Assembly: GCA_905182985.1 (NCBI GenBank)
Contig: CAJJDN010000114.1
Location: 284,856-348,855, forward strand
From: Paramecium sonneborni
Lineage: Eukaryota > Ciliophora > Oligohymenophorea > Peniculida > Parameciidae
Direction: 5' to 3'
DNA: 64,000 nucleotides
The notes beneath the pieces were generated by a model that saw only the letters and a list, made by a program, of their open reading frames with translations, searched no databases and was not told the DNA's origin. The position numbers and the translations under genes are program-made. Positions 3,938 through 53,972 of this stretch are shown here, piece after piece. Numbering within the stretch: position 1 is the stretch's first letter; every line of letters starts with the position of its first letter.

Positions 3938-4681
<744 letters not shown>

Positions 4682-5123: not shown

Positions 5124-6618
5124 ATGAGTTCTGAAAAGGGAAAGTTTATTTTGAAAAAAATGAATCAAACTAATATGATTTTTAGAATGAGAAAATTTTA
5201 ACATTATATTAATCCAAATATTATAGTTTATAAATTAGAAATATGATGGCGAAATTAATGAAACTTACGATTCCTAATATTATTTTTAAGATTTTTATTT
5301 TGAAGGTGAAAATGATCAAAAAATTTTAGACTAATTTAAAAGTAATTTTATTTTTTATAGAAATATAGAATGTATTTAATGTAAAACTTATGAATAGTAG
5401 AAGTAGCATATTCCAAGAAATATAGCTAAACCATTTTGTTGGAGAGGTTCTAATTTTAAGATAAATTAGATGAAAAAGTAAGTTAAGAGAAATAAAGTTG
5501 AAAGGAAAAATTTTATAATAAAAACTTTAAAATTTGGAGATTTTCCTACTGATATAAATGATTCTTAAGATAGTGATCCAATCTTAAAATAGTTATTTTA
5601 AAAAAACCAATTTGGTTAAAAGAATAATTAGTTAAAGAATTAATATAATTTTAATAATATGAAGAAAAGCTTGGATAGATGGTTTATTATTATTATAATG
5701 GTCCATGGGCAAAATTTTATGTTTTAAAATAATATAATCCATAAATTAATTCATCTGTTGCTTAATATTAAACAATAAATATAAAGAATAATTAAAATGA
5801 TGAATCCAATAGTGATGATTAAGATTAACCTTAAAAATGTTTTACATTAATATAACTTTGTGATTTAAAAGACAAAGATAATAGAAAATATAATAACAGA
5901 ATCTATAAAAAATGGAAAAATAAATGCACCTAAATAAAGAGATTTTGAAAAATATGGTTGGTTTGTAAAACAACAAATGAGGATTATAATTAGAAAAATT
6001 AAAAGCATGAGATAACATTAGAAAAAATTATAATTGGATTTAAATTAAGGATTATGAAAATAATTAAGTTCTAAACAAAATTTTTGTCATCATATAATAA
6101 AAATATAATTCAATAATGGAAGACCTTAAAAAATAGTACAGCAAGATAAATAATGAGTTAAGAGAACAAATCATTCATTAGATATTGACTGAGAAGAAAT
6201 CAATTGCAGATGTAATTCTAATATATATTTATCAAAAGGTTGCCTAAGAACACAATATATTACAATCTACCTGTAAATCCATTATCAACACATATATGAG
6301 GGAAGGAAGAGTAGGTAAAAAGGAGAGTCGAGTAAGGAAACTTAAAAAAATTATTCGAATATATGATATTGTTTTAAACCCAGTTCAACCATAGATGTCC
6401 ACTTATCTCTATTGCTAAAAAACAGAAAACTGTATTGAAAAATCAATTAAGAGTTAAAAGGAAGAAAATGATTAAAAAGAAATTTAAGACAATGAGAATA
6501 AGAATAATTTTATGATGCTTTCTTTTTGGTGTGAATAAATCAAGAATTAACTCACATCTTTAACATAATCTAATTATGTTTTTCATCCATTCACTTAACC
6601 TTATTAGAAATGACTTAA
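5124..6618 (+). pseudogene. Decayed gene of an unrecognised family, several single-base frameshifts
   Basis: Long coding-like stretches are present in all three plus frames but are out of register with each other, without any intron-like sequence at the switches. From the ATG at about 5124 the frame reads MSSEKGKFILKK and breaks near 5238 by one surplus base. It then runs YDGEINETYDSQYY onward to the A7 run near 5607, where one base is missing before ILKKPIWLKEQLVKEL. Further one-base slips occur near 5940-5960 and near 6010, after which the last part (DNIRKNYNWIQIKDYENN to the TGA near 6618) is open for about 200 codons. I do not recognise the family; it has Lys/Gln/Asn-rich segments and no known motif. 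A recently silenced duplicate is the simplest reading; sequencing slips in A-runs explain only some of the breaks. Confidence 0.6.
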
Positions 6619-21884: not shown

Positions 21885-22974
21885 TAATTTGATTTTTTAA
21901 TATCATTTATTTTTCTTTTAATCCATATTTATAAACTCCATATTTTGGCTAATTCTAATTAATTTCATTTTTACCATTTTTGTTAATTCAATATTCAAAT
22001 TTATTAGGTTTTGTGGAATGTAAAAATATTCTGCAAAAACATTTTACCCTTTATAAATTAAATATCAGATTTTTTTACTTTTTTCAAAAGAAAATGGAAG
22101 AAATTTAAATTTAAACATTTAACTATCATTCTACATTTTTATTCTCCAATTAATCTCTGAATTATAAGTTCATATTTTATTTATAATCAATAAATTCTAA
22201 TATAATAATATAAGCATACTAATTTGAAAATAAACAAAATTTATTAATAAATAATAAGGAGCAAGTATATTTATTTGATCTAAAATTTCAATAAACTAAA
22301 TTAGATGTTTTTCTAGCAATTTTGAATTAATATTTCAATCTCCATTTATTTCTTTTAATCAACAATCCTAAAATTAATAACTAAGAAAATTAATAAAAAT
22401 TACAATTACAAAGAGTTTATAAATTTATTATTCTTCTTTAGGGCTATAAGTACTTCTATTCCTTTTAAATATTTATGAATATTTTTCTAGATGATTTTTT
22501 TTCTTAAAAAGCAATTAAGTTAAAAATAGTATTATATATATGACAATACTTATAATAATAATCAAAAATTTATAATACATAAAAATAAAAAAAGGCCAAA
22601 TCACTTTCAAAGAAATAATATGAAAATTGATATAATTATTGAGATTCTTCAAAAAATTCATTTAAGATTGATCTTTATTATGATAAGAAATACCCATTAA
22701 TCATATAATCTTCAGAATACTACATTTAATTAGATAAAATAAGGATCTTTGAGATGTTGAGATAACATTTTCAAACAGAATTAAAATAAATTAATTTAAT
22801 TAAAATTTATCATTAATTTAGTTCTTGATGATTTAAGAAGCAAAAACAATCTCATCTTCTTCATCTTAAGAAACAAAAGGTTATTTTGAGATGATAGAAA
22901 ACTAAACAAGAATTTTTTCTTTTGAACAAAGATTGATTTTAAAATTGATTTCTGAAAATTCAAATATTTTTATA
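21885..22974. other. Intergenic region between divergent TPR and kinase genes
   Basis: About 1.1 kb of AT-rich sequence between two genes transcribed away from each other, so both promoters must lie here. Only short frames (at most 46 codons, ATG near 22620) are present. No recognisable element. Confidence 0.5.
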
Positions 22975-25515
22975 ATGGCTGAAGAAGTTCCTTACAATAT
23001 ATCATAAATTATGAACAAGAGCTATTTAATAGATAATCATCCAATTATTGGATCTGGAAGTTTTGGAATTGTATGTATGTGTAAACATCTAATTTCACAA
23101 TTATATTGCGCAGTAAAAGTTCATTAAAGATGTTAATCTGAAGACATTCTATAATAAGTGAATGAATATAAAATTTAGTGTATATTAAACAAGAAATTTC
23201 CTTAAAGCTTTTTATTATTAATAGATCGAGTTTACATAATTTAAGAATCCCTTAATTATTTTACTACATTTGCTGGTATGGAAATGGGAATTACAACTTT
23301 ATCTGAATATGTGGCTAAAGTTAATATTGAATATTAGGAATTTTTAAGTATATATCATTCAATCTTACAATAAATATTGGAAATGCATTCTCTAAGAATT
23401 GCTCACAGAGATATTAAACCAGCAAATATAATTTATACATTAAAAGGTTGGATACTTAGTGATTTTGGTTGTTCTTTATAGTATAAATATTAAAAAGGAA
23501 AGTATTTAATTTCAGGAACTAAATAATATTTGCCTAAAAATTTAAGAGAATTATTAAAAACTAATTTTTCATAAATATAATGTGATTAGAATCTTTTTAA
23601 TAATGATATATACTCATTCTTGATCACTATGTTATAGATTTATAAGAAAAGTCACTCAATTTTACAGTTATAAAAGATGTTAGATGATGATTGCCTTTTA
23701 AAAGACTTACCTATAGAATTTTAAATTTATGGTAAAAGTTACAATTATATTAAATTAAATGTGCTAGTCGGATTAAATAAAATCCCTATATTACCAAGTT
23801 ATTTATAAGAAAAATAAGCATAAATGTATTCAATCTTCGAAGATAAATTTTAGAACGAAGACTACTTAATGGAATTAATGATCAAATAAAAAAAAATACT
23901 GAAGTTTTCTGAAGAAACTATTTGGAACACATATGGTTTAAATAAATATTCAGATTTTAATAATTATGTTCTATAGAGTATCTATAATACCTCAAATGTC
24001 GATCATATTATATAAAAATATAATGTATTGCTACTTAATGAATTTCAATTATTAGATGATAAATCTCTATTAGAAATTAACTCATCAACAAAAGCATGGT
24101 AATATAATCTTATTTAGAATTATTATTTTCGACTAGGAAATTTTGAAAAATAATATTAAGCTTGCCTAGAAATGCAAAAGTATTCCGACGATGCTTAAAT
24201 ATAATACAAACTATTTGAAATTGAATGTTTAATAGAATAAGATTAATAACAAAAGGCTCTTTTAATTTTAGAAGAGTTAGATAATTAGTAATATTTACTT
24301 GATGATGTATCATATGTAAAATTAGAATTATTAAGAACTTATTTAGAAAAAAATTGTCTTGAAACAGTAAACGAACTTTCAAAACACTTAATGAAAGTTT
24401 AAACATTTTTTTAAAGCAGTATTCTTATTTAAAGACTTTCCTTTAATTTTTCTTGGATTATTTTATAATACAATACTCTTGATAATATGATAACAATGGA
24501 TAATTTAAGTATTCCTTACTAATTTTTCCTTGAATAAAATTTTAAAATATTTGGAATATAGGCAAACACTCCTAAAGAAATAATAAAACAATTAGAATAA
24601 AGAGGAGCAGATAAGTATGGGATTAAGATAATACTTTTTATTTTAGCTTCTAGTACTAATTTTGGTTTTCAATAAAATGATAAAATTATTATAGATGATC
24701 TTTTTGAAATAATTATTGAATATTATGAAAAATTTCAATTTTAGGATGTTTGGGAAATTTATTATTATTATTCAATTTATAGTTCAAAGAAAAACTAATA
24801 CAATAAGGCTTTATCGTTAGTTATTAAAGCTATGAAAATAGTAGATTATAGCAATAATCTATATGTTTTATAAATATTGTTTTAATAAATTCATTGTCTG
24901 ATTTGTCTTGGCTAATCTTAAGAATATTAATAAAATTTACTACAAATATTAATTATAATTAAATAAATAAAATGTAAATAATCTCGATTAAATTTAATAA
25001 AAAGGATTGTGAGAGTAAATTATTTGGCTTTTACAAAGAATAAATTTACAAGCCAAATTTTTAATATGATGAAGGAATGCTTAAATTAGGAATCATTTAC
25101 AGAAATTTTGCACATTTTATATAAATTAGAATGGGAAACAGTTTTAATGAGTCAACAGCCATTAAAACTTTTAAAATTATTTAATAATAAAATGTTATCA
25201 ATTTGTGAATATACAGATAATAATGATTAAGATATTTTAAAGTGTATTTAAAATATTGTAGTAATTTCAAGATAAAAAGTCAATGTTGATTAAAAAAAGG
25301 AGAATGTAGATATTGCAGTCAATTTTTCAGCCAGACTAATACAAAATATTCTAATTTTTGAAGACTTGTTTAAATTTAATTAAACTGAAACATTAAATAT
25401 TTAAAATGAATCATTGAAATATTTATATTTAAACAATTATTTTGAAAATAAGGATAAATCCAAAGAAGCATATAATATAATTTAAGAATATGATTATTAT
25501 AATAATTATAAATGA
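22975..25515 (+). CDS. Protein kinase with long helical C-terminal region, 846 aa, intronless
   Basis: The frame is open for 847 codons with no intron. Kinase motifs in order: glycine loop GSGSFGIV (about residue 25), CAVKV with the ATP-anchoring Lys, catalytic loop HRDIKPANI (about residue 146), and SDFG of the magnesium site. The APE motif is replaced by YLPKNLRE, although the preceding GTK is as in active kinases. The HRD and DFG residues needed for catalysis are intact, so activity is plausible. The remaining 550 residues are helical, with TPR-like pieces such as YYFRLGNFEKQYQACLEMQK, suggesting a substrate-binding solenoid. It fits the large ciliate-expanded kinase sets; I cannot assign a group. 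Confidence 0.85.
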
Positions 25516-30135: not shown

Positions 30136-33100
30136 TCATTGGTTAAAGTAAACTCTAACTTCAGGTACATTCTTTAATATCTGTTCATCTTTCACAAAAT
30201 TAATTACTAAATCTACATAATCAGTCTAAAAAAATGATATATAAAATATATACCTTAACATCTAATAATTCAAAAATGGGTTATGTAAATAGATTCTATC
30301 CTTTGTGAAGATCATGCATATAAATGACTGAAGATTATTTGAATACATTAATTGGTTCTAAATGATAAGTTTATTTTAAGTGTTAGAATAAGCTCTACAA
30401 AGTGATTTCTTTTCCTAATCTAACCTCCCATCTATCCCATAAAGTAACATTAACTTCTTCATTTAATTTGATAGTTTCAGCTTTCATAGGTTCAGTCAAT
30501 TAAACAATAGGAACTGCTAAATTAATGAATCCATTCTTCATATTTTCCAATTTACATTTTTTTAGAACTTTAACTAATTCTATAGTCTATAATCCTGAAA
30601 CTACTGCTGTTGTAGTAGCTAATGCTGGAACTATTCTTCCAGCCTTTAATTTAACAGTAATCCAATCCATTTCATCAAGACCATAATTTAAAGCTCTTAG
30701 ATTTCCTAGAGAATGAATAAAATCTATATGACCATTCATATCACAATCTTTTTCAAATTCTTATGAATATAATTTAATTCTAAAATATAAATATATATAT
30801 ATACCCAACAGATCTCAAATCTTGAAGTTATGCTAATAATTTAGTAGTATCATCAAAAATATTATTCTCTTATTCTTCTTCTTATTATTTCTATTATTTA
30901 TTTTCTAGTTTTAACACTTATTCTTCTATCTCCTTTTTCTTTGAATCATTAGGTATCCATTCTTTACATGTCATTTTCTATCCTAAAATAGCTACAGCAA
31001 TTCTGTTCTTTTCTAATCTCCAATCATTTGGTGTAGGTAGATTATATTGTTTAGCTCTAAGAAAAGCCATTGTTGATATAAATTATACTACAATGAGATT
31101 TTCAATATCATAATTTAAACATTTTGGAGGTCTTTTTGGTAATTTCCAAAAAGGTTATCCATCTTTTGTTTTAGCATCAGTTGGATATGTGTAAAGTAAT
31201 TATTTAATATCATTGATAAAGTATTTTTAAAATTTGTTTTTAGCCCATTAAATACAATCATCTAATTTGATTGGAGCAAATTATAATAATTTAATGGTAG
31301 ATTTTAATTGTTTAATTTCTTCTGGATTTGATGGATTAAATGATTAATTATCAATAATATTTTAAGCTAATTTTGGTTTTAATGAAAACAACTTATTAAA
31401 TTTATCTCTAGCAAATTCAATACAATGGAATGTTTCTTCTGGAAACATTTTTAAAGTACAATAAGGAATTTCACCTTCTTCAACAGGATCTTACATACTA
31501 TTATATGATTCTGTTTAGAATGGAATAATACATTAAACATGTCCTTTAGGTCCAAGTGTTCCAGATTCTAATAATGGAATCTTAGCTTTAACACATCTAC
31601 GATCAACATATCTTCTAGCTTAAACATTATCAAGAGCATTAGCAACAAGTGATAATTATTCAAAATATTAATCATTAAAAATGTTTTCAGTTTATTCATG
31701 AACTTTATCCATTCTAGCTATTAATTTTCCTTTAAGAAGAGGATTCATTTAAATAACAGCTGCTGCTGCAGTCTAAGATTTAGGTTTATGAATATGTTTT
31801 TCTCTGAATAAGAATTATCTATTTAGATTAGATGTTTCAATATGATCAGGATCAGTTATAGTAATCTAACCTTCTATACTTAAATTAATCATAGCAAAAT
31901 TCTTTAGTAATTCACATCCAATTGCACCACATCCAACCATGAATATTTGTGTATTCTTAACTTTCTAATAGAGATCTTATCCCATTAATTTAGCCAAAGC
32001 ATCTTTACCTGTAATTTATACTTGATCTAATGCTTACATTTAAGCTTATTGATCTCCTTTTTCATCCCATATTTCGAAAGGTAAGACTTCAATACAATCA
32101 AAATAATAAGCTTAATTAATAGGAGTAAATTTATTAGTGAGGGCTTTAATAATTTCTTAAGAGACAAACCCTCCTAGATAAGCAGCAAGAGGAGGAAATG
32201 CTGGTAATTAGAAAGTCTTCTAAAACATTTTGAGATAGTATTCTAAATACTTAGCTTATTTTTAATTCTATTAAATTAAGTTACCCTTATCAAATTTTTG
32301 AATAGAATCAAGAAGATTAGAGATATCTCCATTAGTATATGATAGTGTTCTATATGCTAAATGTAATAGACTTTGTTCTAATGGTTTAATACTATCACTG
32401 TCCTTAAGATTTGGATCTAAGAAATCATCACTATTTAAAACAGTATCTAAGGGTTTATTAGAAAATGTAATAGTTTATTTAACATGTCTGGCTATTCCAC
32501 TTGATATGTATGGAGAATATTAAGAGATATCATCTAGAATCTTAAATTTCTTTGTAGAAATTGTTTAAATTTTGAGAAGCTGATTATTAATAGATTAATC
32601 TCCTAATTGCATTCCTTAGACTTATAATAAAATGATATGATCCCCATCAGCAAATTAAGATCGTTATCCCTCTAATAATTCAACTACTCCATCTTATGAA
32701 ATAGATTTAATAAGAACATCTGCAATATCTTCTCCATTCTTATCAATTACTTTAAATTCAGTTCCAAAGTCATTGATTATTCTACCATAAACAGAATTAG
32801 CATTAGATATTATTAATTTAATATTATGAGTTCTACAGAGATTATCCCAACAAATTAATTCATTGTAATCATAAACATCTGTTAGAATTGCTATGTCAAA
32901 TTGCTCTTTAGTTATATACTCTTAAACATCTTTCTCTATCACTTTAACTCTAACATAGTTATTCAACTATTAGATTTTGTCTACACATACACTAGCCCTT
33001 GATTTCCCAATATCAGATTAAGAAAGGAAGAACTACCCAACCAGATCATCCTCATTTACTACTTTATTATCATAAATGGCAAAAACTCCAACTCCAGAAA

Positions 33101-36100
33101 GCACCACATTCTTAGCTATCTCTACACCCAATGATCCTAATCCACTAATCAATACTTTCGCATTTGCCTGTTTCTTAACAGCTTCTATTCCCATCGCTCC
33201 TATATATCTACTCCATCTGTCTCTCACTTATTCATTGCTTACATCAAGTACTTATTCTTAAATAGCTTTATCATATGTCACATCTACTTCTTCTATATTG
33301 AGTATTCCTTCTGTGACTTTTGGAACATTTACTTGATTTTCTTATTATTTCTTTTTTCTTCTTTAATTCAATTTTGGACTTATTTCTTTGATGCTTGGAT
33401 GTTAATAACTATTTAAAGCTTTCTCTAATTCAGCAGTAGCATCTTTTAGCATCTCTAAATATTAAGTCTTAGATTTCTTAAATATTGAACACCATTGACT
33501 ATTATGATCACTCACCAATCCCATATATTATGCTTATCTCTATTCTGCATATTATATCCATTTTTTTACTTCATCCATAATTTCAACTCTCTTCAAATAA
33601 AAATGTCTTCTAATAATTGATTCAAATCCTAATGGTGGATTTTTAATATTTTCAATCATTGCATATTATATATTACCAAATCTAACAATATTAGAATATG
33701 CTTCATTCTTCATTTCTCCATCCTATTAACCTGCTTCCCCTTCAAATCCTGGTTCATTAAAATAAACATCTTCAGACATTATTATAGCTTATGTTGATAC
33801 TAATACTTATAATATTGTTGATAATTTAGGATCCCAGTTTTCTGATGCATGTCCTCTCCATGTTCCCAATAATGATAAACATACTTTACCACATGCATAT
33901 AAATTAGGATTAAATCTCACTTTACCACCTCCAGTAGTTGATAAATTCATCTTTGGAGGAGTATTTGGATATTGATCTTCAAAATATATATCAAATAAAT
34001 AAGCTCCATGAGCATATGGTGTCCCAGATGCTCCCATTATTAATGCTTTTATTACATCTACTCTATCCTTATCAGCTCTTACAAATATTGAATTTGTATG
34101 TTCAACTGGTAATGAATTTGACATATCTGCGAATTCTTATGCTAAACGAATCAATTTTGCTGGAGTTGGAATCGGAGCTTAAGTTATTTATTTTTCATAA
34201 TAATGAAGATATTACTGATTTTATCCCTTAAATGAAACATAATCAAATCTTAAATCCTTTAATAATAATCTATAAGCTTCATTTAATGGTAATTTTAATA
34301 TCTCCTACAATTCATGTTCTTTTGCTTCTTCTAATTCCTCATCTGATTCATCACATTCAAATCTTTCTATTGCTTCTTAAACACATGTATCCGTCTCCAA
34401 AATTATTGTTGCTATTTATTTTGAAATCTAATCCTTCTCTGACAATTCATTTGTTTTCAAACATGATAAAAATATTTGTGCAATATTTTTTAAGTTACTT
34501 AATAATTCTGCTATAGATTCAATCTGTTTTGGTATATAATTTGATGGAATCCTTAACAATAAAGGAGTCAAATTTTTATGTTTCGCTAATGTTTTTGTTA
34601 ATTAAAGATAACATAAATTGAGATCAAAATCTTTTGACATTTCTAACAATGAACCAGATCTAAAAGCTGCTTCTAATAAAGACAATAAGGCACTTTCAAA
34701 TATCATTTCATTAATTCTTTTTGATAATTCTTAATTCAGATGCCAATTATCATAATTGAAAAAGTTTCTTATAATTTCTAAAAGAGATTTTAATTATTCA
34801 GATCTAACTTTCTTTTTATCTAAATATTCTTATGTATTCCATTTTTAATTCTATCCAGTTTAATCACTACCATATCCAACACCTTACTTCTTTTTAGGTT
34901 TTCTATCTACACCTTTATCATTTTATACTTAGTTTTACTATTATTATTATTATTATTATTATTAAGGTTCTTCTTCAGCAATAATTTCTTAAAATACTCT
35001 TTTCTTTTCTTTACTAACAACGGCAATTTTATCTAAGATTTTTTATATTAAATTATCATTAATAGCAATAATTCTAATTTCTTAATTATTATGTGTCTTA
35101 AAAACATCTGACAAAGTATCATAAATAAATTTAACAGCTTCAATTTCTTTTTCTTTCCATGCTTTTTAATCACTATTAGGTTAATCAGGTGTACCTGCTA
35201 ATAATTAAAAGAGTAATTCCATGGATTTCTTATTTTTTAAATAATAACTAAAAAATTATGGGACTGAACAAAAGGCACTTAATTCAGAGACATATGAATT
35301 CCAAATTTATGTCAATTCTTAATTTTACCATTTTTTAGTTGCATCCTAGACAGCTAAAATAATTTATTTGACGCCATCTTAATTTTAGAATGCTTCAAAA
35401 ATTCTCAAAGCTGCTGAATATTACAATGGAGTTTCAGTAAGAGAATTTAATTATCCTAATAATTCTAATCCATCAACAACAAATGTTGGGAATGGTTTTG
35501 TTTATTATTAAATTAATGTACCATTAAGTTAAATACTAGTTGAGTTTTTGATTGCTTATTCATTCAAAAACATATTCGATACATAGATGCATTATAAAAT
35601 GTTAGTATTATTACAATTTCCTGGTATAGAATAAATAGGTGTAGCACTTAAATAATTATAGACAGATTATTTAGCAAAGTATTTATCTTATAAGATAGGA
35701 TTACTTAGAATTCCATATCCAAAAGTAGAAGTATCATTTGTTTCTATTAATTAATTACCTTATTATCCACTAAACAATGGTTTTTATGTACTTTTAGATA
35801 CTTATTATGGTTATTAATAAATCCAGATTTCCATTCTTTACATCCAAAAATCATCAAAATAATAATCTTCCTCTGGTTTTTATTCTAAAAGTTCAAAATC
35901 ATGAATTCCAATAGAAACACTTGAAACTTCTTAATCATCAGAAAATGTTAAATTGATTCTCTCCAATAAAAATGAGAAAGAACCTCCATTAACATGATCC
36001 ATACCTACTCCAAATGTTTTACGATCATTATTTAATAAATGATATACTCTATCTTTCTCATAAGTAAATCCAAATTATTCTCCATTCTCTGGAATTGGAT

Positions 36101-39100
36101 ACACTTCTCCTGGATAATAATCATGTTAAAATTCACTAACCAAAGTACCACATTTTTAAGTACTAAATAATCCAATAATACAATTTTCATTTTGATTATT
36201 ATTTTTTCCAAATAATAAAATTAAAAATGGTCCCTTCTATAGAGTTGATAATGTTTTATGGAAATATGAGCCTCCTTATTATAATTCCATTTCCTTAACC
36301 CATCTTCCTCCTTTTTTTAGAGAATTGGTTTTAATAACTTTTTGAATAGCTGATTATAAAGCATCATAATATTAAGGTGTGAATTCTTTGGCTTAAAATC
36401 CATTCAATTCATATGATCCACTAGTTTCATTAGTTTCATCTTCTTAAATATGAAGGGAACTTAATTTTCTTATATCACCCACAAAAATTTAACTCTCTTT
36501 ATCCCAAATATCAATTGTAAAATCAACTTTTTCTTCAAAATTTAATAAAGGTATAAGTACATTTTCAACATAATTAATATCTACAATTTGTGATAATAAA
36601 TGAATATCATAAATCAATTTTGAAGCTAATTAACTAATTGCTTGAGATGTTGATAATGTTATCTTACCAATAAAATTAACGATATGACTCAATGTTAATT
36701 AATCAATTTATTTTAATAATGTTTTAGATGGGTTTGATACTTTCAAATTGTCATAAACTTATAAATGGTAATTATTTGCGCAATAAAATTCTTTAAGTTC
36801 TGTAACATTAGCAGATGAATCAAAAAAGAAAAAGTAATCAGACATAGTTGTGTTATCTGTTTTTTTCAATGATTCTATTGTTTATTCAAAGATTTTAGGT
36901 ATATGTGGTTTAATTAGATTAACAACATCATTGCTAATCTATACTAAAATAGACAACAATTTTAATTTATATAGAGGGGACTTTTGCAATAATTATTATG
37001 TCATATCTGATAAACCAGTTTATTATAATTACATATTTAACACATATGGTTATGGCAATTTAATTAGAGTGATAAATAATCTAATTATCATATTACAATG
37101 TTCATATGATTAACTTGTCACTTCTACTGCCTATAGAATATTTTAAAAGTCTTCTTCTTCCACATCTAATAATATTGGTTCTTTGCTATTTTACTTGCTT
37201 GAAATAAGTATTGCATAAGTTAAGGCTTCAATTAAAAGAGTAAGCTGAGTAAATTAATCTTAAGATTTAGCAATTTAACCAATTTATTTTATTTAATTCA
37301 AAATGTAATTTAAAAATTTCTTTAACCTATCTAATTATTTATCCTTATCTTATAAAACAATTTCTGCTGTTAATTTAGCATGTGCCCATTCTAAAGTAAT
37401 ATCCATAATCTAATCTAATACCCAATCTCCAAATTCTGGATTATACTTAGTCAATCCTATAAACAATGGTGAAAGTGTAGATTCATTCGAATGTAATGCT
37501 AAACTAATATTTTTAAAGCTCTTTTTTATTTATTAAATTATGTTCTAATTATTACTGATATCAAATAATGTATTTCTAAATTTTTATGAACACATCTTGC
37601 CTAATAATCTACTGGCAGTTTTCTCCTAAATAGTTTATATCTATTTATTTCTATTAATTGATGAATCATAACCTGTAATGGAAATGAAACTCACTCCTAT
37701 TTAAATATTATTGTATTGTTTAAATGACAATTAAGAAATCTACTCTAAAAATGTTATTTGTGGCTTTTTCATAATAAATCTAATATAAGTAATAGGTTAT
37801 TATACTAATGATTTAATTTATTGATTTAAAGTTCCTTAAGCATTTAATCTCCAAACATTTAAAGCCATAACTTTAACACTATAATATGTATATGCTTCAT
37901 CTTCAATCAAAGTCATAATACCTATTGGATACCATAAATTATCTGAAGTCTTGTTCTTAACTTCAACTACTACTATATCTGGAATACCTAAAATTCTATC
38001 ATTGTATTCTGGAGTGTATGCTTAAAATCCAATTTTAATTTATTTTAATTCAATAGATTTCTCTAATTAGAATTCAAGAATATAATCTTCAGATAATTCA
38101 TCTTTTAGAGTTAAAACATGAACTTTAGCTTTGACTCCTTTTTTATTTACTTACCAATCCTTAACCTATTATTATGGTTACCCTGGTTATTTCTACGATT
38201 CAATCATCAATAATTTATTAGCAAATTCTTCTTCTTAAGGTTGTTATTCACTTGCCTCACTCTTTTCTTCAAAAGTAGTTGAAGTCAAATGTGTTTTTTC
38301 TAACAAGTATTCAAAACCATTTCCATTAATAGCTATTTCTCTCACTACTTAATCAGTAATCATCCATAATTCATTTAATTCTTCAAAAATTTCTTAAGTA
38401 TGTTTTATTAATGAATAACTCAATATATTTGTCATTTAATTCACCTATTCTTAAATTACTATATCAAATTCTTTTTAAAACTTAAACAACTATATTAATG
38501 ATTCTGTTGCTAATTATTAATCTGCTTATAACCAATCAAATATCTATCTTACATGTTTACTGATGCTTCCTAAAATCTCAGTTGCAGGAGTTACATTAGG
38601 AATATTTGATTTATTAAGCATATACCAATGAATATATTTTTTTATTAATTCACCATATTATGGTATTTCCTATATTAGTATTTATAATTTTATAGGACAC
38701 TCTGCCTTTTTCATTAATTATAATAATTTATTTCCAAATTATAGCTTTTTCAATAATGATAATTCACAACTATATACACCATCATGTCTTCCAATATTAC
38801 AATATTTATATAGATATTGTGCAGTTTCAGAAAATATCAATTTAAATATTTGAGCATTTATTTTCCTTTCTTAAGATGCCACTATATTTAATAATCCATC
38901 TATCAATGTTGTTCCTTAATATTAAAATATTTATTTTATTAAATTACTATTAAATTCTGTACTTTAAGTATGTTCTAAAATTGATTTTGTCATTTCAATA
39001 AATCTAAATTGTATTACTGCTTATTTATTTGTATCTAATTTCAAATATATTGATAATAATTAATCATATATTTTGTGCTCCATAATTAATTAAGTTGGAA

Positions 39101-42100
39101 TTTTACTCATCAAATTTAATAATAATCCCCAATAAGTTAATGAATTTTCTAATGTTTCATTATTAAGTAAATTCTTTCTTGGTTCAATTAAAAATTTAAT
39201 CATCTATGAAACAGTTTCAATATTGCATATTTGAACAAAACCTCCTTCATCTAATTTTTCTGAAAATTCCTAATAGGTTTAAGCAGCTTAATATTTAACA
39301 GATCTTTTTCTTTGATTTTATTTTTGTTCACCTTAGCTTAGATTCATATTCTAAAGTAATAATAATTAACCAACTACAAATGATAAAAATGAAAACCAAG
39401 CTGAACTATCTAATGGATGTATAAAGATAGAAATATTTTCATTAGCATATTTTACTATCGCATTCAATATTATTTAGAAGAAATAAAATATTAGTTTATA
39501 TGTTTATTAAGTACATAACTTTTCTATAACCTATTTAATTTAATTCAAAATAGTATTAGAATCACTTGATTGTATTGCATTAGCTAATAATTAAAATAAT
39601 CCTGATTATGTTGGATCAGTAGGATTTGTAATTTCAGTTACAAAATGAATGAGTTCATCATTATTTAATTTCATTAGAACATTACATGTTTTTAGAAATA
39701 GGTTTTAAATATCTTAAATTTGATATTATTATTAATTTTATAAAGTCCATTTCATTATACAAAATAGAGTTGAAAAAACCTTTTACTTTGTTAATTCAAA
39801 ACATTCATCTGTTAATTTTTCTACCTATCCTATTTCTAAATCTTAACTACTTGTTGATCTTAGAGTTCCTAAAGGTTTAATTTAAATTTAAGGATCTACT
39901 AATTCCTTATTATTGAACTATTTATCTACCAATTTATTTAATACTAAACCAATTAATTGTTGAGCTTATTTTATTTATTATTTTTCACTTAAAATTATTG
40001 AAACATACATAATAGTTTGACAAATTGGAATATGAAGAACTTTTAAAGTATTGAGAATATTAGCATCTGAATCAATTTTTTGATATTAAGCAAAAGTAAA
40101 TAGAATCCAATATTTTAAGTTTAAATTACTCAATATAATATTAAGTAATTAGAAACTCAAATCTGTTATTGGACCTTGGTTAACTTATACAAAAGTTTTA
40201 TATATTAATTAAGCCATCTTTAATCCTTCTTATTCTCTTAAAGCCATATCTGATCTCCATTATTGACATGTAGAATCAGCATGAATTAATATTTTAATCA
40301 GTTCATAAGCATATGTATACAAAAAGTCTAAAGATTTACTTAAATTAAGACTTGAATTTGGATCTTGAATTAATTCAAGCTATAATTTTCTGATTATTTA
40401 AATTGTATCTTATAACTTTTCTTTACCCTAATTCTATTATAGTTTTTATTTTAACTCTTTTTATTTTTAAACCAACAAAGCCCTAAAATATTATGATTAT
40501 ATTTAAGTATGAGAACTATGAGAATTATTAGACTCTTTTATTTGTAAGATTATTTATTTTTGTTTCAATCCTAAAACTTTGGCTGAATCCAAATAAATAG
40601 CTCCTTAATTGATGTATTTTTAGTATTTCAAAGAGTTAGGAAAGCTCATCTCCTTTTCAAAAACAAAATCTCCTTCAATAGTGAATGATAATTCAGTTTA
40701 TACCTATTTTTCAGATTGTTAATTTAATTATCCTTTGAATTATGGAATTATACATAATTCCTTAGGAGCAATATTATTCTCTTCTTTTGTTCTAGTGGCT
40801 GCAGTTAATGAATATGTTATTTGTAATTTTAATGTTCTCACTTATTAAGCCTTAATATTCCATGACATTATATTTAATTTACTTTTAGGCATATTTGATG
40901 AATGTTAATCAGCATATTTAGTTAATTAAACTAACAACCAATCTGGTAATGTAACATCCAAAATAGGTTAATTATTTTAACCATTAAATAAAGTCACTCT
41001 TACTACTCTACAATTTATCTGAGGAGTATTGAATACCAATTAAAATTAATGAATGTCATATGAACATAATAGATCAATTACATATTCATCATAATGAGCT
41101 TATCTTGAAAATACTATTATTGAATAAAGAGGTCTCTTTATATTAATATCTATGTCTATCAAATTATTTGGTTTATCAGAGTCTACCTTTTCTTTATTAC
41201 TTATTTCAATCTATTTTTATACTTCACCTAAAACTTAAGATATTAATGGAGTATCTTCTAAAAATTAAGTTAATTTATAATATCTATCAGAAAATAGTTA
41301 CTCCTCAGTTAACATCAAGAAAATTTATAATTAATTTAACTTATTGAAATGACCTGAATCAACTTTATGAATAAACTTTGCAATTTATTTTAAATGACTT
41401 AAAATATATGGATAATATTCTTTTGAATCTAATGAAGCATATTTCTTCAACATCTAAAGTAATTAAATAAATCCTGTTGGTTTTATTATATCTGATAATG
41501 TAAAAATATTATTAATAATATCTTTTACTGCTTTTACTAATTAACCATTAAATTCAGGTATTGTCAAAAATTATTAAAAGAATGTTTAAACACAAGATTC
41601 TTCTTATTATTACTATGATAATAAATTTAACTTAATAAATTCTAATATATTTAAGTCTTTATAACATATGTTTACAAATTGAGGAATACTTTAGAATAAT
41701 TTACACAAAACTTTAATTGCACTGAATCTTTATTATTAAGATGCTTTAATGTTATGAATAAGTTACATTAATTTCTAATTGAATTCATGATATTTTGAAA
41801 CATCATGCATCAAATTTGTTATTTAATAAGCTTAAGGTAATTTTTATAAAAGATTTTAATTAATATCTTTCTATTTAAGTCCAGTAATTTAAAGAAAACT
41901 TATTTAAGATTCTTTTAATTCAATTTTAATGTTTTAAACATTTGATAATAAAGAAGCAGGTATTTCACATATGTATTTATTATAATTACCATAAGTATCT
42001 TCTCTAAATTAACATTAATCTTTATCCAAAACATTATCATTTACTTTCAAAGTAATATCTTTAAAATGTTCAAAAGATTCTTAACTTTAAATCAATTACT

Positions 42101-45100
42101 CTCCTAAGTTTTCTTTTACAACAGTGCCATATGCAACAAAATAATTCAAAGTGAGAGGATTTTATTCAAATTTCACTTAATCAGTCTGTTTTGCTGATAG
42201 AGTCATTAATAAAATATATTTTCCTATTTTTGGATTTTCTAAATTAAATGTTATTTATTCTTCATTTGGTCCTAATTCAAAAAATGCTACTGGTTCCCAT
42301 GGTTTTAAAGGTCTAACATCTTTTTATCTCTCTTATAACCATAATTGATAATTTTCTTTATTAAAATTTTAGAATTTTTAGCAAAATTAAAAATCATTAG
42401 CATTATTTCCTATAAAAATCAATCCAGATCCTAAAGGAACTCCAGTATTTTAAAATTTATTTGGACTTGCAATCGAAAATTTAGAAAAACTCATTAATCT
42501 TCCATGTAAATGTTTAAATATAAATTCTGGTTTTGAATAAACTGTAGAAAATATTTCTTATTAAACAAAACATATTTTTGATATACATTACTAAACATTA
42601 AATTAAGATCCTTTATGACTGAAAATAGTTAATGGTAATTAATCATCTTTCTCAGGTTTTAATCCATCAATAGATACCCATCCTTCTGATTTAAAAGTAG
42701 ATTTTTTATCACTGAATCCTGTTACTAACAATTTCATCATTTGTTACTATTTAGATAAATGTAATTCTATTTAATTTTAACTTTTTTAATTAATATCTAC
42801 TATTATATTAGCCCAGGATTCTCCTTTTTTTTATGATAAAAGCATAGGATTTGTACTAATTGGTTAAAAGTATACATCCTAATGTTCATTCAACTTTGCT
42901 AAATCTGAAATTTCTTCAGGGGTTAATTTAGTTAAATCATCCAAAGATTCAACAATATCATTTTATTATTATATATTTACTTATTATTTCTCTTAAGTTT
43001 CTTCTTACTATATTTCTTATTATTTAATTGCTGCTTTTTCTTGTTTTTAGGTTAATTATAATTTTGGTTCATAACTTTCTCCTAAAGATTATAAGAATTA
43101 TATTTTACCATCAAATAAAGAGCATTCATAAACTTTTGTAGCACCTTAAATAAAAAGTTTATCATCTTAAAAGTATAGGTTTGTTATTATATCATCTATT
43201 GGTAAAATAATTTAGTCTTTAAATTCAAATTCTTCTTTTGATTACTAAATAATTTTAATAAACAATTACTGTTAAAACTGGATATAAGGTTTCATAAATA
43301 AATCTACTATTTTCTCCTTCATTTAATAATTTTAATAAATTCTAAAAATTTTCAATTTATTAATAAGTTTTATTTGATAAAATTGAATAAATTCCTTCAT
43401 TACTACTTCTGAAAAATTAACCTAAATATTTGATATTTTGAAAAAACCTATTCAAAACTAAATAAGATTATTATTCAGTAGTAAAATTATGGGCAAATAA
43501 TAAATGTCTAAATGGTTTTTAAAGATTGATTTGAATAAAATTTGATAATTTAGATGTTTTGAATATATTTCTAAATTTTTCATTGTTATCCTCCTAAACT
43601 TTCTCATTCTTTTCCTCTATAACATCAGTTTACTATTCTGATATTTACTCTTAGATAACGATAATATCTTCTTTTTCGAATGCATCTTAAGGAGGTTCAG
43701 AATAACATGCTTAACATTTAATATATTCATTTGAATTAAGTAAGGTGCATTCTTTACAAGTCCAATATGGTTTTAATTTGGATAATTTAACTTCTTTTTA
43801 TTATGATTATTATTATAATTTTTCTTTTGTTTTTTATTCTTCAATAACTATAACTTTCTCAATAGCTTCTTCAATTTTATTTTTGGTTTCTATCAATGCT
43901 TATTTTGAAGCTTCAATTGAAAATCCCATATTATAGAGTTAATCTAACAATTCTTCACTCGGAACAATAACTTCTTAGGCTTCTTCACTTTGACTATCTT
44001 GATTTTCAATATTTGAAGATGCATTATTTTCTTATTAAGGTTCAGCAAATAAAGGAGCTAACGAATTTTAATCTTCTACTTTTTCTTCAAATGATCTAAG
44101 ATTATATTATAAGCATCTATGTAAACTTAATTCTCCATTCCAAACTTAAATTAATCCTTCTTCATTTATAAGAGTGAAATAAATTGAATCATTAAATGAT
44201 TTTACCAATTAAAAATTATCATCTAAATCTACATAAGGAATATTATTAATTGTCAATGCTAAAGGAATATCTATATAACTATAAATTTTTTCAGCTGGCA
44301 ATATTCCGAATAAATCATTCTTATAAGTTATTGGTTCAATTTAATTTCTATAATTTGTAAAATGTCTAAATTAATTTGAAAAACCTGGTAGTTTCATTAA
44401 TCCTAATTCTGTTAATTATATAATATCATAGGGGTAATTATTTGAATCTAAAAAAGTGTGTAATCTATGAAATTAAGAAAATATTCTAGGTACTAAATTA
44501 AAAGATGTAGTAGAATTAAACTTTTCAAATATTTAATTGTTTAATGTCATTGCATATAATTATTCATCAATTTCTAATAAAATTCTGATTATTTTTAGTA
44601 TTTTACAACTTTCAACTTATTCATCAATTCTCAAAACACGACCAAAATCTTATTCAAATTCTTCTAATTATGAAAGAACTATTTATTTCATTAAAATATA
44701 TGGAATTTAAATAAAAACTTAGTTATCATATTCTTTAGCTTATATCCAATAATAATGAAATTATTCAATCATTTTTTGATTAGTTTATCCATTTTCTAAT
44801 GATTTTTTCCAAGTAAAAGATGCTGAGATTAATTAATAATGTTGTTTGATTAATTTAATAAATATTAAAGATTAAGGAGTTTCTGGTCTATTTGCAAATA
44901 TATTAATTAATTATGTTTCATCTATATTTGATTTACCTAATTTAGGTCTAAGCAACTTGATTTTATTATTGTGGAAATAAATAAAGTTATTTGCAATTTT
45001 AATAATGGAATCACAATTGAATTCTTTAAATTAAATTTAAGCCAATTTTTCTGCAAAATCTAAAGTAGGTATTTAAAATTCATTTTTTAATGTAAATAAA

Positions 45101-45703
45101 TTGAGAGGTAAACATTTAATTCTTGGATAATTTAGATTTGGATGTTATGCAAATGGATTTAAAGCAGCAACTTTTCCATGTGGAGTAAATTATATTAGAG
45201 GAATATATGTAGCATTCTTTTCTATAGTAAGTGTTTTTTTTTAATTATGATTTCCATTCAAATAAAAATTAACTTCTCCTAATTCAATATTAAGAATAAC
45301 TGTGATTGTTCTAATAGTACTTGCTGTAAATGATTAAAGATAATTTTTCTCTTGTCCTGGTTTGCTGACTGTACTTACTCCAATCTTGAATTTTAACCAA
45401 TATATACTTGCATCTAACCACAATCATATATTGCAATAATTTCCCATATATGTGTTCCTTTAGACATTTAAAGAGTACCATATTTCTTAATTGCATTTGT
45501 ATTACTACAACATTATACTACTAATCCAGATGGTGTGACTAATATGTTAAATTCAGAAGACTTGGCAAATTACTATCTAGAAGTATATTGATAACAATGT
45601 TATACATTAAAGATTAAGCTTAAGGTTATCCTAAATATTGTTAAAGGATTTCACATTCAACTTAATTAACACTGTAATTAGCTTCTTTAACAGAGTGATG
45701 CAT
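30136..45703 (-). CDS. Giant fusion protein: SPRY-UBA-RanBP2 ZnF-scaffold-BIRC6-type E2-UBA1-type E1 (5,145 aa)
   Basis: Five introns (45577-45605, 45385-45407, 43245-43269, 30780-30804, 30226-30253) leave exactly 5,146 codons. Domains in order: SPRY-like (about residues 70-200; SKGTHIWEIIAIYDCG, LGEVNFYLNG); UBA (about 567-605; LLDQLYNMGFSIEASKQAL); RanBP2-type zinc finger (about 629-655; YWTCKECTLLN, IKCQAC), a ubiquitin-binding class; a long Gln/Asn-rich helical scaffold; and a BIRC6-type UBC domain (from about 3835; TTGGGKVRFNPNLYACGKVC with the E2 cysteine at about 3916), followed by the BIRC6 C-terminal block RRHFYLKRVEIM. A linker of about 110 residues leads into a complete E1 (from about 4130): inactive adenylation half (SGLGSLGVEIAKN), active half (VGCGAIGCELLKN, SNLNRQFLFR), catalytic cysteine in PYCTLKMFP (about 4723) and ubiquitin-fold domain (TLWDRWEVRLGKE). 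Every codon from 43244 to 30254 was checked for TGA: none. No BIR domain was seen. Confidence 0.9.
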
Positions 45704-50034: not shown

Positions 50035-53000
50035 ATGAGTGATATATTATTAATCACTTAAGAGCTAATCAATGATGTTGAAAGGTGAATTTTTGAATTA
50101 TACATTTAGAACTATCAATTACTTTACAGTAAGTGATCCAAGAAGAAAGAATAAATTCATATATCAATATTTATCTGATTTTTATTTAAAGCAAAAAATA
50201 CCATTAGACAAAGTTATTCAATTCTTTAGAAACATCTAAGTAATAAATATATTTATTAGTGGTTAGTAAAATGAATCTTCTTTTACAATTCTATTAGAAA
50301 ATCTCTATCTATGTACTATGGTGATTTAATAAATGTCTGATTCAAGAAAACTATTAATCTAATTATTGTAAAGTTTAGCAGAAAGATTGACATAAACATA
50401 AAAATAAATTTTTTTTGATAATTTTGATGAAGAAGTATTATGGGAATGTGGATTTGTTTAATAAGATACATTTTCTTAAAGAAAAAGGAAAATAAACACA
50501 GATATTAATTTTTGTCAAAATAAATTTTGGTCTATGAAGGATGAAAATGAAGGTTATTGCAAATTGATGGTTGAAATTTTAGATGCATCAAAACACACTG
50601 ATTTTTATGATGAAGAAATTTAATAAAGAATTGAAAATATTATTCATTTAATTGGATATTTTGATTTGGATCCAGACAGAGTAGTTGATATTATCATTCA
50701 AAGTTGGATAGAATATCCATATAGTTTATCATATGTCAAAATTCTGAAATAATTTAAATGCATATCTGTTTGTTAATTTTTAGGCAAAAGATTTGAATCA
50801 ATAGTTTAAACTCTCTCAAATAACAATAATATTAGTATTTTAATGACTAAAATGGCTAATGCTGCTTAGGTTTTGTAAACAGATTAGAAAATTCCAGATC
50901 ATAAATTGATTATAATAACAGCAACTGCTTTAAAATATAAATTATTTGAAGTTGGAAATATTTGGAAATATTTATAACCAAATGATTAAGATTTTTCAAA
51001 AATCTTTGAAGATTTAGCAGATGAAAGTTATAAATGTTATAAGTCTTTTGATAAACTCATGCAAATAGAAGGATAAAGAGATTAAAGAAATAACAATGAT
51101 TAATCAGAAAAATTGAAGAAAGATTTATTTGGGCAATAATTATGTAAATAAATATTATTAAAATAGATAATTAAAAATTATGGTTGATGTAAGGATTAAT
51201 ACACATAAACGCATTCAATATATTTTAAGAGTTATATAAATCATTTGAAGGAATCATAGACTTTACAATATTTTTACCTATAAAAAGTAGTTTGGCTGAT
51301 CTAATTGAGTGGATGATTGATCCTTTACATGAGTAATATTTTAACAAAACTTTATTCAAGAGTAGATCTAGAGAACAAAAAAAGGTAATTTTATCATTTA
51401 ACTATATAGTTTGTATATGATCCAAATTGTACTACAGCATTTTAGATAAAATAATTAACTATTATTGATGAAGATGCAATCTCAATATTAAATGAAATAC
51501 TTACAATATTTTCTCCATACATTGGTGAATATCCTTTAGTATTTCATAAATTATGTAAAGTATTGATAAATTCATAAAATCCTGATGTCTAACCATTAAT
51601 CCTTGATCATTTAATTCCGGGTATATAAAGTGGGGAATGCTTAGCAATTGTTATTGAATTATGGAAATTTTTGGGATAATTAGATTTTCGAAAAAGATTT
51701 GACTGTTATTCAAAATGGAAAGATATTCATTAGTTCTCAACAATCAATTAGACAATTCGAGCAGCATAATTAACTAAAGAGCACATAAGAAATTTCTTTA
51801 ATAAAATTGATAAGGATAATAAAGAGAAAATGATGATAAAATTTGCTAAACTATCACACAATTAACCTATGATTGTAATGAATGATTTAAGGAGAAATAG
51901 ATTAGATACTCCAGATAATAATTTTGTGATTGTTCATGCTTTAGGATTGGCCACTCCTTTATCTTTGGATATATTATAATTTATACTAATTTAATGCTTG
52001 TGTGATTACAATGATGAATCAAAGGTGAGAGATAAAGATATTGAATGTCGATATTGGTTTAAGAATATTGCATATTTCATAGCAAGTTTGCTTAGAAAAT
52101 ATTACACAATTGATATGCAAGGGTTATTTGCCTACTTGATAGATGTGTTTTCAACTTATCAAAGTAATTAATAAATCTCGAAAAATGAATCTATAATAAA
52201 ACCAGAAATGTTAATTTTAAGGGAATTGATTGAAAAAATGACAGGTATTGTTCATATTGAAGATCTTACACCTTAATAAATCTAAGCTTTGGCAGGAGGA
52301 AGATATATATAACTTGAAACCACTTCATAAACTAATGAATTTAGAAGATCAAGAAAAAGTTCAAGTGCTTTAGAGTAGTTCTTTTGGTCATAAACAATTA
52401 ATTCTCAAAAGATTTTGAATTAAAATAATTAAGAGGAAGTAGTTTCATTGGCTTTTTTGATGTTAGTAGTATTATGTTAACAGAGGTCTAGATTTATCTT
52501 AAATTATCATAATTAAAATTTGAAACCTTTGGCAGCATTATATGACAATTTTACTTGTAGTATAAATTAACTTACTAAATGCTTATTGTTTTAAACAGAC
52601 AAACCAACTCATTATGCTTAATTATTTCCAGAAAACCCCATTGAAAGAATGGTCATAGATTTCAAGTTACCTTTTGAGATAGCTTTTCATATTGTGAGAT
52701 ATAGTTATAAAAGCTTGTATAATATGAGTGAGGAGGAATTTTAAGAAGAAGTAGAAAATATTAAAAGCATATATGATAAGATTGATCCTAAAATAATGTA
52801 TATCAATCCAGACATAAACAATTAGTAATTACCATAATTGCCTTTAATATGTCATACTTATGTAAAAGATATTTTGTGGACAATTATCAATCCTGAATTT
52901 TTTGCAATATTTTGGCTGTTAAGTTTAGATAATATTTATGTTCCATAAGCTATTTATGATTAATAATTAAAATGGTTGTAAGAAAACATTAATAAAAATC

Positions 53001-53972
53001 CTGATACAAAAGACAGATAAAGCAAATAAAATTAGAAGGCATTTGAAAAATTATAGAATGAATTAGACAATAATATAAAACGATAAGAACAATTTGATAA
53101 ATTTTTGAGAGACAAAAAACAAGTTTTCAGTTTCAAAGAAGTTGATCAAGCAAAAGAAAATTATCATATCAAATTTGCTTAATGTTTATCATAAGCGTGT
53201 TTGTTACCAAGAATTTTGATAGATCCAGCAGAAGCAATATATTGTGCAAAGTTTGTACAAAAAATGTTATAAATTGGTAAACCTAGATATACTTATACCT
53301 TCTATGTACCTAAGGAAATTATATATTTTACATTTACATATTTATAGTGTGCAACTGAAGAGGAGGCATCAAATGTGAGTATTTTTATTTAATAACTGAT
53401 CATACCATATGCTAATTGGAATGATGAAACTAAGTTTAAGAATGACCTGAAAAACTATTTTGACACAACTATAGAGGGTTATGATAAAGAAAAGCAGTAT
53501 ATTATTTAAAATATATTTTTTAAAATGGCTTCGTTCATCAGAATTTTGAAAAATAATGAGATATAGGTATTTGTAATTAGTTTAATATTAGGTTCGAAAT
53601 GCTTTAATATTTTTAAAGAGAGTCTAAGATATATTTCCACCTACTTAATAAATTGCTGAACATATTAAAATATATTTATAAGATGTAGAAAAAGATTATG
53701 GGCATATTCAAGACATTAAAACTTAGATTAAGAATTTCCATATAGAAGATAAAATCAATACTCTACCAGTGTAGACTCCGAAGACTAATTTAAATAATAC
53801 TGCACAGAAGTAGGTACCAACAAATAATGAAAAAATAAAAACAATTGGAAAAACTGGGGATGTTGAATATGATGAATAAAATCACAAAGATCAAACTGAA
53901 GATAAACAAGCTCCTAAAAAAAAGAAAAGTCATGATAAAGAAAGACACCCAAGAAGATTAGATAAAACATGA
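50035..53972 (+). CDS. THO complex subunit 2 (THOC2/Tho2-like), 1,270 aa
   Basis: THOC2 is the scaffold of the THO complex, which couples transcription with mRNA packaging and nuclear export. Five introns (50085-50109, 50240-50266, 51144-51166, 51385-51409, 53567-53591) give exactly 1,271 codons. Family landmarks: DPRRKNKFIYQYLSDFY near the N-terminus, LIGYFDLDPDRVVDIIIQSW, the Tho2 core around WFKNIAYFIASLLRKYY, LLPRILIDPAEAIYCAKFV, and VRNALIFLKRVQDIFPP. It ends in a Lys-rich acidic/basic tail (PKKKKSHDKERHPRR), as in other THOC2 proteins. It starts only 42 nt after the preceding gene on the same strand. It is shorter than animal THOC2 because the long disordered tail is reduced. Confidence 0.85.

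Follow-up and report, generated by a model that had tools for sequence, protein, structure and literature searches.

Ubiquitin E1s and E2s are, in the textbook view, separate proteins that meet briefly. The nearest known counterparts of the enzyme reported here are animal UBA6 and BIRC6 (BRUCE), which are of the same enzyme types as its two parts by tree, profile scores and homology at the E2 end, but which are two separate proteins in animals and one polypeptide in the ciliate fusion. The two animal proteins work together: cellular BIRC6 complexes show enrichment of UBA6 (PMC10827748), in vitro ubiquitination assays pair UBA6 with BIRC6 (PMC12022042), and PDB entries 9qgw and 9xgb contain chains of both.

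A natural E1–E2 fusion is known from bacteria. PMC12355090 describes Cap2, a CBASS protein in which an E2-like domain lies N-terminal to an E1-like adenylation domain; its E1 is ATG7-like, and what it conjugates is the CD-NTase, a substrate other than ubiquitin. The statement in the preliminary description of this locus that no natural E1–E2 fusion had been described was thus too wide. Among the matches listed from the open-licence PMC literature, a scope that leaves preprints outside, there was no eukaryotic E1–E2 fusion. Here we describe a single gene of Paramecium sonneborni that encodes both a BIRC6-related E2 and a complete E1.

Results

The window, a stretch of 64,000 nucleotides, carries the gene on its minus strand at 45703-30136. 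With exon joints placed by comparison with P0002 and P0003, it has seven exons (45703-45606, 45576-45408, 45384-43270, 43244-43107, 43079-30805, 30779-30254 and 30225-30136), whose spliced frame encodes 5,136 aa and contains one terminal TGA. The unspliced frame 43400-30753 runs without a stop for 4,215 codons in the ciliate code (table 6). Within the big exon of 4,091 codons there is no TGA in the frame of the gene, compared with TGA counts of 83, 202, 55, 38 and 102 for the five remaining frames. Between the UBC and E1 parts the frame contains 0 stops, and no intron is suggested, as P0001 has no insertion there relative to P0002. The preliminary description had reported exactly this arrangement, a single minus-strand frame running from the UBC domain through a complete E1 with no TGA and no intron between them, and its positions for the two catalytic cysteine codons (33879-33881 and 31458-31460) are exact. 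Its estimate of about 230 codons between the two parts agrees well with our count of 221 from the UBC cysteine to the E1 start motif. Its total of 5,146 codons overlooked an in-frame 27-nt intron at 43106-43080 (minus strand), and the corrected total is 5,137 including the stop. We conclude that one gene encodes a BIRC6-type E2 together with a complete E1 and confirm that the fusion is real.

The P. sonneborni genome contains eight such fused genes: the window gene, three long-fusion paralogues and four shorter fusions. In all eight, a single frame free of stops contains the two cysteine motifs. For the two pairs of recently duplicated genes, dN/dS is 0.01–0.10 across the N-terminal part, UBC, junction and E1, with values of 0.08 and 0.02 for the junction alone; both halves and the linker are under purifying selection in these pairs. 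Constraint over a longer span is less clear because the comparison between the two older pairs, the window gene against C38 at dS near 1, gives higher dN/dS values (0.59 for the N-terminal part, 0.16 for UBC, 0.38 for the junction and 0.43 for E1). The same genome also encodes separate free UBA1s, C88 and C74, the C88 protein being modelled with its own start. The preliminary description had called for a search of other ciliate proteomes for a free UBA1; in this genome, the presence of C88 and C74 rules out its loss.

The N-terminal part of the protein contains a UBA-like domain (43858..43956, minus strand, as are all features below; PF22562, E 1.7e-7, above the cut-off), which by analogy would bind ubiquitin, and a RanBP2-type zinc finger (43696..43767; PF00641) that is weak here (16.1 bits, below the cut-off) and above the cut-off in the paralogue P0004. 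A possible SPRY domain (45172..45351; PF00622, E 0.009) is also weak and below the cut-off. No WD40 repeat was matched by Pfam in the fusion protein. The BIR domain (PF00653), which BIRC6 has, was not found in P0001, exon 3 or P0004 by a Pfam scan with exons 1 and 2 outside it, or in the precomputed Pfam lists of P0002–P0085. We do not file the fusion as an IAP because no BIR domain was found.

The kinship with BIRC6 lies at the E2 end. Residues 3443-4021 (33537..35273) are homologous to the animal BIRC6 C-terminus by both hhalign (probability 100, E 7e-82, 573 columns, 31% identity) and phmmer (257 bits against BIRC6 chains), and the homology takes in the stretch before UBC, the UBC itself and the C-terminal helices. 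The UBC domain lies at 33723..34148 (PF00179, E 2e-19), with its catalytic cysteine at aa 3907 (VCLSLLGTW; 33879..33881). BIRC6 is the best E2 match in the PDB, and its UBC (237 bits) is clearly nearer to that of the fusion than those of the chains named "(E3-independent) E2", which we take to be UBE2O (up to 130 bits), or of UBE2Z (92 bits); the short fusion P0077 gives 195 bits for BIRC6 compared with 102 and 92, respectively. The UBC domains of UBE2O and UBE2Z, E2s that are large or linked to UBA6, are nonetheless related to that of the fusion; the solved chains of these two that we found have no attached E1. One further weak match falls at animal BIRC6 3209-3403 (hhalign probability 9.8), near the CBM32 loops given in PMC10827748. 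The earlier label "BIRC6-type" is apt only for some 580 residues at the E2 end, the span of the 573-column match, and no BIR domain was found.

The UBC is followed by a junction of helices and then a variable tether (aa 4022-4127; 33219..33536) and by the E1 (30139..33218, interrupted by introns 30804-30780 and 30253-30226). We regard the E1 as complete because Pfam finds two ThiF stretches, FCCH, SCCH and UFD, the last in the exon after the one that also yields UQ_con. These form the canonical layout of a ubiquitin E1: two adenylation halves, of which the active second ThiF half lies at 31443..31991 (PF00899, E 2.7e-68, 2 stretches); FCCH at 32478..32696 (PF16190, E 9e-15); SCCH at 30650..31442, split by the intron 30804-30780 (PF10585, E 1.8e-45 and 1.4e-13); the catalytic cysteine at aa 4714 (PYCTLKMFP; 31458..31460); and the UFD at 30139..30439, split by the intron 30253-30226 (PF09358, 33.1 bits, above the cut-off). 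Unlike Cap2, the window E1 is of the full two-half eukaryotic type, and its score of 60.6 bits with the Cap2-like NCBIfam model falls far short of the 320-bit cut-off. On both fold type and score, we set aside an assignment to the Cap2 type.

The preliminary description had called this E1 UBA1-type, but trees and profiles place it with UBA6. In a 36-row E1 tree, a subset of a 66-row tree with long-branched rows, including the short fusions, left out, the fused E1s form a clade (100/100) that groups with animal UBA6 at 93/88. The ciliate free UBA1s instead join those of Vitrella, Perkinsus, animals and fungi at 100/100, without the fused E1s. Among the 127 of 133 fused E1s with spans > 850 aa, all 127 score higher with an animal UBA6 profile than with an animal/fungal UBA1 profile, although the margin for the window E1 is only 7.5 bits. 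The best of four profiles, for the window E1 and for 124 of the 127, is a Balamuthia-like protist set. Could the E1 half nonetheless be a duplicated ciliate UBA1 that became fused to BIRC6? Single-sequence phmmer does rank yeast-type UBA1 (474 bits) over human UBA6 (431 bits) for the window E1, and the branch of the fused E1s is long (0.52–0.57 changes per column). However, the UBA1 clade that includes the ciliate free UBA1s excludes the fused E1s, of the four profiles, that of alveolate UBA1 gives the window E1 its lowest score (683 vs 821–875 bits), and an AU test gives moderate evidence against joining the fused and alveolate free E1s (p 0.036). We consider such an origin very improbable and, on trees, AU test and profile scores, reject a UBA1 identity; as judged from sequence, the fused E1 is UBA6-type and lies outside the UBA1 clade.

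The basic InsP6 pocket of UBA6 is only partly kept. Four of the six residues swapped in PMC9391358 are present in the window E1 (K644, K706, K709 and Y710), as are K628, K652 and K687, whereas W640, S647, S648, R691, L702 and K714 differ. Over the 133 fused proteins, position 706 is K in 106 and 709 is K in 122, and 714 is mostly D or N.

The catalytic residues are strongly conserved. The E2 cysteine is present in 131 of 133 fused proteins and the E1 cysteine in 130, with gaps in 2 and 3 truncated proteins, respectively; 128 proteins have both, and the other 5 are truncated. The E1 catalytic positions checked hold the expected letter in 125–131 of the 133, and the adenylation residues are conserved. 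This conservation leads us to reject a dead E1 or a dead UBC.

The fusion is widespread in ciliates. UBC followed by E1 was found in 133 of the 240 related proteins listed and the reverse order in 0, and the named carriers belong to three ciliate classes (the tree label "Oxytr" for P0029 and P0059 is our presumption from their identifiers); the search of other ciliates proposed in the preliminary description thus returned the same fusion. Four fusions with both cysteines held (P0013, P0020, P0041 and P0139) have transcriptome-assembly names, GILK01 being presumably a transcriptome by the form of its accession, and these transcript-derived fusions come from species other than P. sonneborni. Stentor and Blepharisma appear by name with free UBA1 only, and no heterotrich E1–E2 fusion occurs, among the matches listed.

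These data also bear on whether the fusion could be an assembly join, a frameshift or a gene-prediction artefact. Some metagenome gene calls are indeed split: P0086 ends and P0122 begins in one shared conserved helix, the longest contigs of both being 24,801, and P0149 also begins inside the UBC tail. These ends fit broken gene calls, and we read P0086 and P0122 as one broken call and not as an unfused state. For the fusion itself we found nothing that points to an artefact. Eight intact copies in the assembly, selection on the recent pairs, and many independent genomes and transcripts reduce its probability to a negligible level, and we reject it; the independent fusions likewise speak against the frameshift or join near the junction that the preliminary description had named as a test. 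Separately, P0175 (1,073 aa) and P0184 (979 aa) are E1-only proteins that begin with the motif typical of fused E1s and retain no trace of a UBC; they may be partial calls, broken copies or truly unfused.

Discussion

Our results are consistent with a model, which we consider probable, in which one polypeptide would use its E1 cysteine to activate ubiquitin and then transfer it to an E2 cysteine, either its own or a dimer partner's. The sequence itself displays several parts of this model: one frame encodes two complete enzymes with their catalytic residues, the join has been conserved over the long term, and the two halves are kin to UBA6 and BIRC6. Channelling within one polypeptide, as put forward in the preliminary description, is likely the best, if putative, mechanism because the fusion is conserved. 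The fused E1 would adenylate ubiquitin, its ubiquitin-fold domain would recruit the tethered UBC across the variable tether, and the charged UBC may then modify substrates on the N-terminal scaffold, by analogy with animal BIRC6, a combined E2/E3. The distance from the UBC to the E1 end (> 1,200 aa) was too long for a cis-docking model.

The junction is where a different outcome might arise, if the chain were cut there or transcribed in two parts so that E2 and E1 act separately. The tether at aa 4067-4106 is a dip in conservation, the least conserved part of the junction, and is predicted with low confidence to be disordered (mean pLDDT 54.5 for the junction model, which used 8 sequences; beyond aa 4067 the values stay below 50). 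The E1-only records P0175 and P0184 have the fused-type start, and the full-length fusion protein is a prediction from sequence. Nevertheless, the spacing from UBC cysteine to E1 start is held at 206–239 residues in the 128 two-cysteine fusions, although a cut product would need no fixed spacing, the junction is under purifying selection in both recent pairs, and in other species the E2 and E1 parts occur together in assembled transcripts. Separate products thus seem improbable.

Slightly less improbable, but still unlikely, is that the fused E1 is a general or altered one, working mostly on E2s other than its own or on a ubiquitin-like protein, with the fusion serving only to localise it. UBA6 activates FAT10 as well as ubiquitin (PMC9391358), the UBA6-like basic SCCH pocket is partly kept, and recruitment of further E2s by the ubiquitin-fold domain is conceivable. 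However, the UBC cysteine and fold are strongly constrained beside the E1, UBC comes first in 133 of 133 fusions, and free UBA1 genes are present for general charging. Under the channelling model, these free UBA1s would likely charge other E2s, and the fusion would be a self-contained E1–E2/E3, making permanent a UBA6–BIRC6 partnership that animals form between separate proteins.

A broader interpretation, for which we see the case as evenly balanced, is that these proteins form an ancient ciliate, possibly older alveolate, family of E1–E2/E3 mega-enzymes. A UBA6-type E1 would have been welded once to its dedicated BIRC6-type E2, prior to the divergence of the main ciliate classes, with later multiplication to the eight genes of this genome, and the UBA6–BIRC6 axis would be much older than animals. 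Each molecule would be an assembly line for activation, conjugation and ligation, perhaps tuned by inositol phosphate via the UBA6-like basic pocket. A permanently attached E2 would call into question whether an E2 must leave before its E1 is reloaded, and the fusion may offer a natural channelled cascade that is genetically accessible in Paramecium and Tetrahymena.

Gene structure and domain content

The genome around the window comprises 91.5 Mb in 289 contigs. On the minus strand, a 4,215-codon open frame (43400-30753, translation table 6) forms the core of the fused gene (45703-30136), which, when its exon joints were set against the close relatives P0002 and P0003, consists of seven exons separated by six introns, each 23-29 nt long. 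After splicing, the frame has 5,137 codons and one TGA only, at its end. The preliminary description was right that one gene and one frame hold both enzymes, since a single big exon carries the UBC domain and most of the E1 with 0 TGA in 4,091 codons (38-202 in the other frames); its count of 5,146 codons, which took in a 27-nt in-frame intron, was too high. The UBC and E1 cysteine codons lie in the spliced frame at 33881-33879 and 31460-31458, both on the minus strand. Pfam matches in the big exon are UQ_con, two ThiF stretches, FCCH and most of SCCH, and the exon that follows holds the remainder of SCCH and the UFD.

The "BIRC6-type" label suits the E2 end but not the IAP part, because the only strong block in profile comparison joins aa 3443-4021 to animal BIRC6 4170-4802 (probability 100, 31% identity, 573 columns), whereas elsewhere in the giant N-terminal part similarity is marginal at most. 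A Pfam scan of exons 3 to 7 found no BIR domain. The N-terminal part does contain a UBA-like domain, a weak SPRY match and a RanBP2-type zinc finger that is weak in the window's protein and above cut-off in its paralogue P0004. The window also holds, on the plus strand, genes for THO complex subunit 2 (THOC2; 50039-53659, at least two exons, with ~4 kb between it and the fused gene's 5' end), a protein kinase (22753-25515) and an EF-hand protein (8810-10210).

Copies in the genome and free E1 genes

A search of the genome with PF10585 gave 19 pieces, and UBC matches adjoin E1s at eight loci: the window's contig C114 and a near copy on C116, a second pair on C38 and C31, and C33, C100, C125 and C140, each of which bears a shorter gene. 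Both cysteine motifs lie in one stop-free frame at all eight. For the UBC, junction and E1, respectively, dN/dS was 0.027, 0.081 and 0.066 between C114 and C116, 0.011, 0.018 and 0.084 between C38 and C31, and 0.16, 0.38 and 0.43 in the older comparison of the window with C38, where dS is near 1. In the short gene on C100 (L019), the C-terminal E1 part occurs twice in tandem (4703-5280 and 6021-6598) with identical match scores, as if the 3' end had recently been duplicated.

The fusion is an addition to a normal UBA1, because separate E1 genes, not adjoined by a UBC, are present on C88 and C74. The C88 gene product, 1,041 aa long, begins at a start of its own, and none of its listed relatives (from Tetrahymena, Stentor, Blepharisma, Moneuplotes, Vitrella and Perkinsus) has a UBC in its Pfam list. 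Other E1-like sequences were also seen. Locus L022 on C9 encodes P0254, a second free E1 of UBA1 type, which evolves fast and is related to proteins of P. pentaurelia, P. octaurelia and P. tetraurelia; the pair L023 (C24) and L024 (C54) is very divergent, its pieces matching UBA1 at about 20-38% identity, and has no adjoining UBC match. Another unusual ciliate E1 fusion is P0320 of Tetrahymena malaccensis (1,509 aa), a free E1 of UBA1 type with TPR repeats.

Conservation of the fusion

We compared 240 proteins, the best 120 of 235 from one search and the best 120 of 5,242 from a second. Among these best-listed matches, the UBC is N-terminal to the E1 in 133 and the reverse order occurs in none; 71 have an E1 without a UBC, and 36 lack the E1 (35 animal BIRC6 records and the split P0086). 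Two of the E1-only proteins, P0122 and P0149, begin inside the UBC tail, as would be expected of fused genes that were broken in gene calling. Two more, P0175 and P0184, share a start motif known elsewhere from fused E1s but retain no trace of a UBC; they may represent partial records or unfused relatives. Both cysteines align in 128 of the 133 fused proteins, the other five being cut short, and in those 128 the spacing from the UBC cysteine to the E1 start is 206-239 residues.

Among the matches listed, fused proteins are named for Paramecium species, Tetrahymena utriculariae, T. malaccensis, Ichthyophthirius, Pseudocohnilembus, Moneuplotes crassus and Platyophrya; by taxonomy look-up, they span the classes Oligohymenophorea (Paramecium), Spirotrichea (Moneuplotes) and Colpodea (Platyophrya). 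No fused protein among the best 120 of 235 and best 120 of 5,242 was named Stentor or Blepharisma. Because P0013, P0020, P0041 and P0139 carry transcriptome-assembly names and both cysteines, single RNAs covering the E2 and E1 halves exist in other species, provided that these assemblies are not chimeric.

The fused E1 belongs with UBA6

The E1 had been taken as UBA1-type, an assignment that the phylogeny does not support. A 66-row tree unites the 30 fused E1s and P0122 in a single clade, and a fully supported split puts this clade with UBA6 and apart from UBA1. In a careful 36-row tree, which left out the short fusions and kept 11 fused rows, the fused clade (100/100) groups with animal UBA6 (93/88), outside a UBA1 clade (100/100) of animal, fungal and alveolate sequences that includes the ciliates' own free UBA1. 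A constraint uniting the fused and alveolate free E1s cost 53.5 log units, with an AU p of 0.036. In profile comparison, an animal UBA6 profile outscores an animal/fungal UBA1 profile for each of the 127 fused E1s of sufficient length, by 64 bits at the median, 4.7 at the least and 7.5 for the window, whereas all eight alveolate free E1s, as a control, favour UBA1. A third profile, from Balamuthia UBA6 and its kin (on the UBA6 side of the 66-row tree), gave the highest score of the four profiles tried, both with the window and with 124 of the 127 fused E1s. However, for the window's E1 single-sequence phmmer places a yeast-type UBA1 chain (474 bits) above human UBA6 (431 bits). PMC9391358 describes a UBA6-specific InsP6 pocket in which six residues were swapped. 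Of this set the window keeps K644, K706, K709 and Y710, so that the pocket is partly kept; at positions 648 and 702 it has L and W. L is also found at 648 in the UBA6 rows compared, so this position is uninformative.

Discussion

Catalytic residues are intact by alignment in both the E2 and the E1 of the fusion. E1s recruit E2s through the UFD, which here is the part of the E1 most distant in sequence from the UBC. Conservation divides the UBC-E1 connection into helices and a variable tether of ~40 residues, and a weak junction model (8 sequences) has pLDDT <50 from aa 4068. In the most probable mechanism, such a tether would bring the UBC within range of the UFD and of the E1 cysteine, either in cis or within a dimer, and the charged UBC would then modify scaffold-held substrates. 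In mouse BIRC6, two chains form an anti-parallel dimer, and the C-terminal UBC is flexible (PMC10827748).

In animals, UBA6 and BIRC6 are separate partner proteins: BIRC6 complexes from cells are enriched in UBA6 (PMC10827748), in-vitro assays combine the two (PMC12022042) and PDB entries 9qgw and 9xgb contain chains of both. Ciliates thus have exactly this pair fused in one chain. The preliminary description knew of no described natural E1-E2 fusion, but bacterial Cap2 is one, although it differs from the ciliate protein in being ATG7-like with a non-ubiquitin substrate (PMC12355090). Among the matches listed in the open-licence literature, we found no eukaryotic UBC-E1 fusion; fused proteins are already in public databases, mostly as unnamed products. 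What we judge to be new here is the single-chain form of known partners, long conserved.

The age of the fusion depends in part on P0139 (GILK01004046), a fused UBC-E1 of 1,760 aa that forms the deepest fused branch in the trees, where every other fused E1 falls in its sister group. This protein may come from a host outside the ciliates, because the free UBA1 of the same organism, P0273, groups with Vitrella and Perkinsus, apart from ciliates (86/74). If the organism is indeed a non-ciliate, the fusion predates ciliates.
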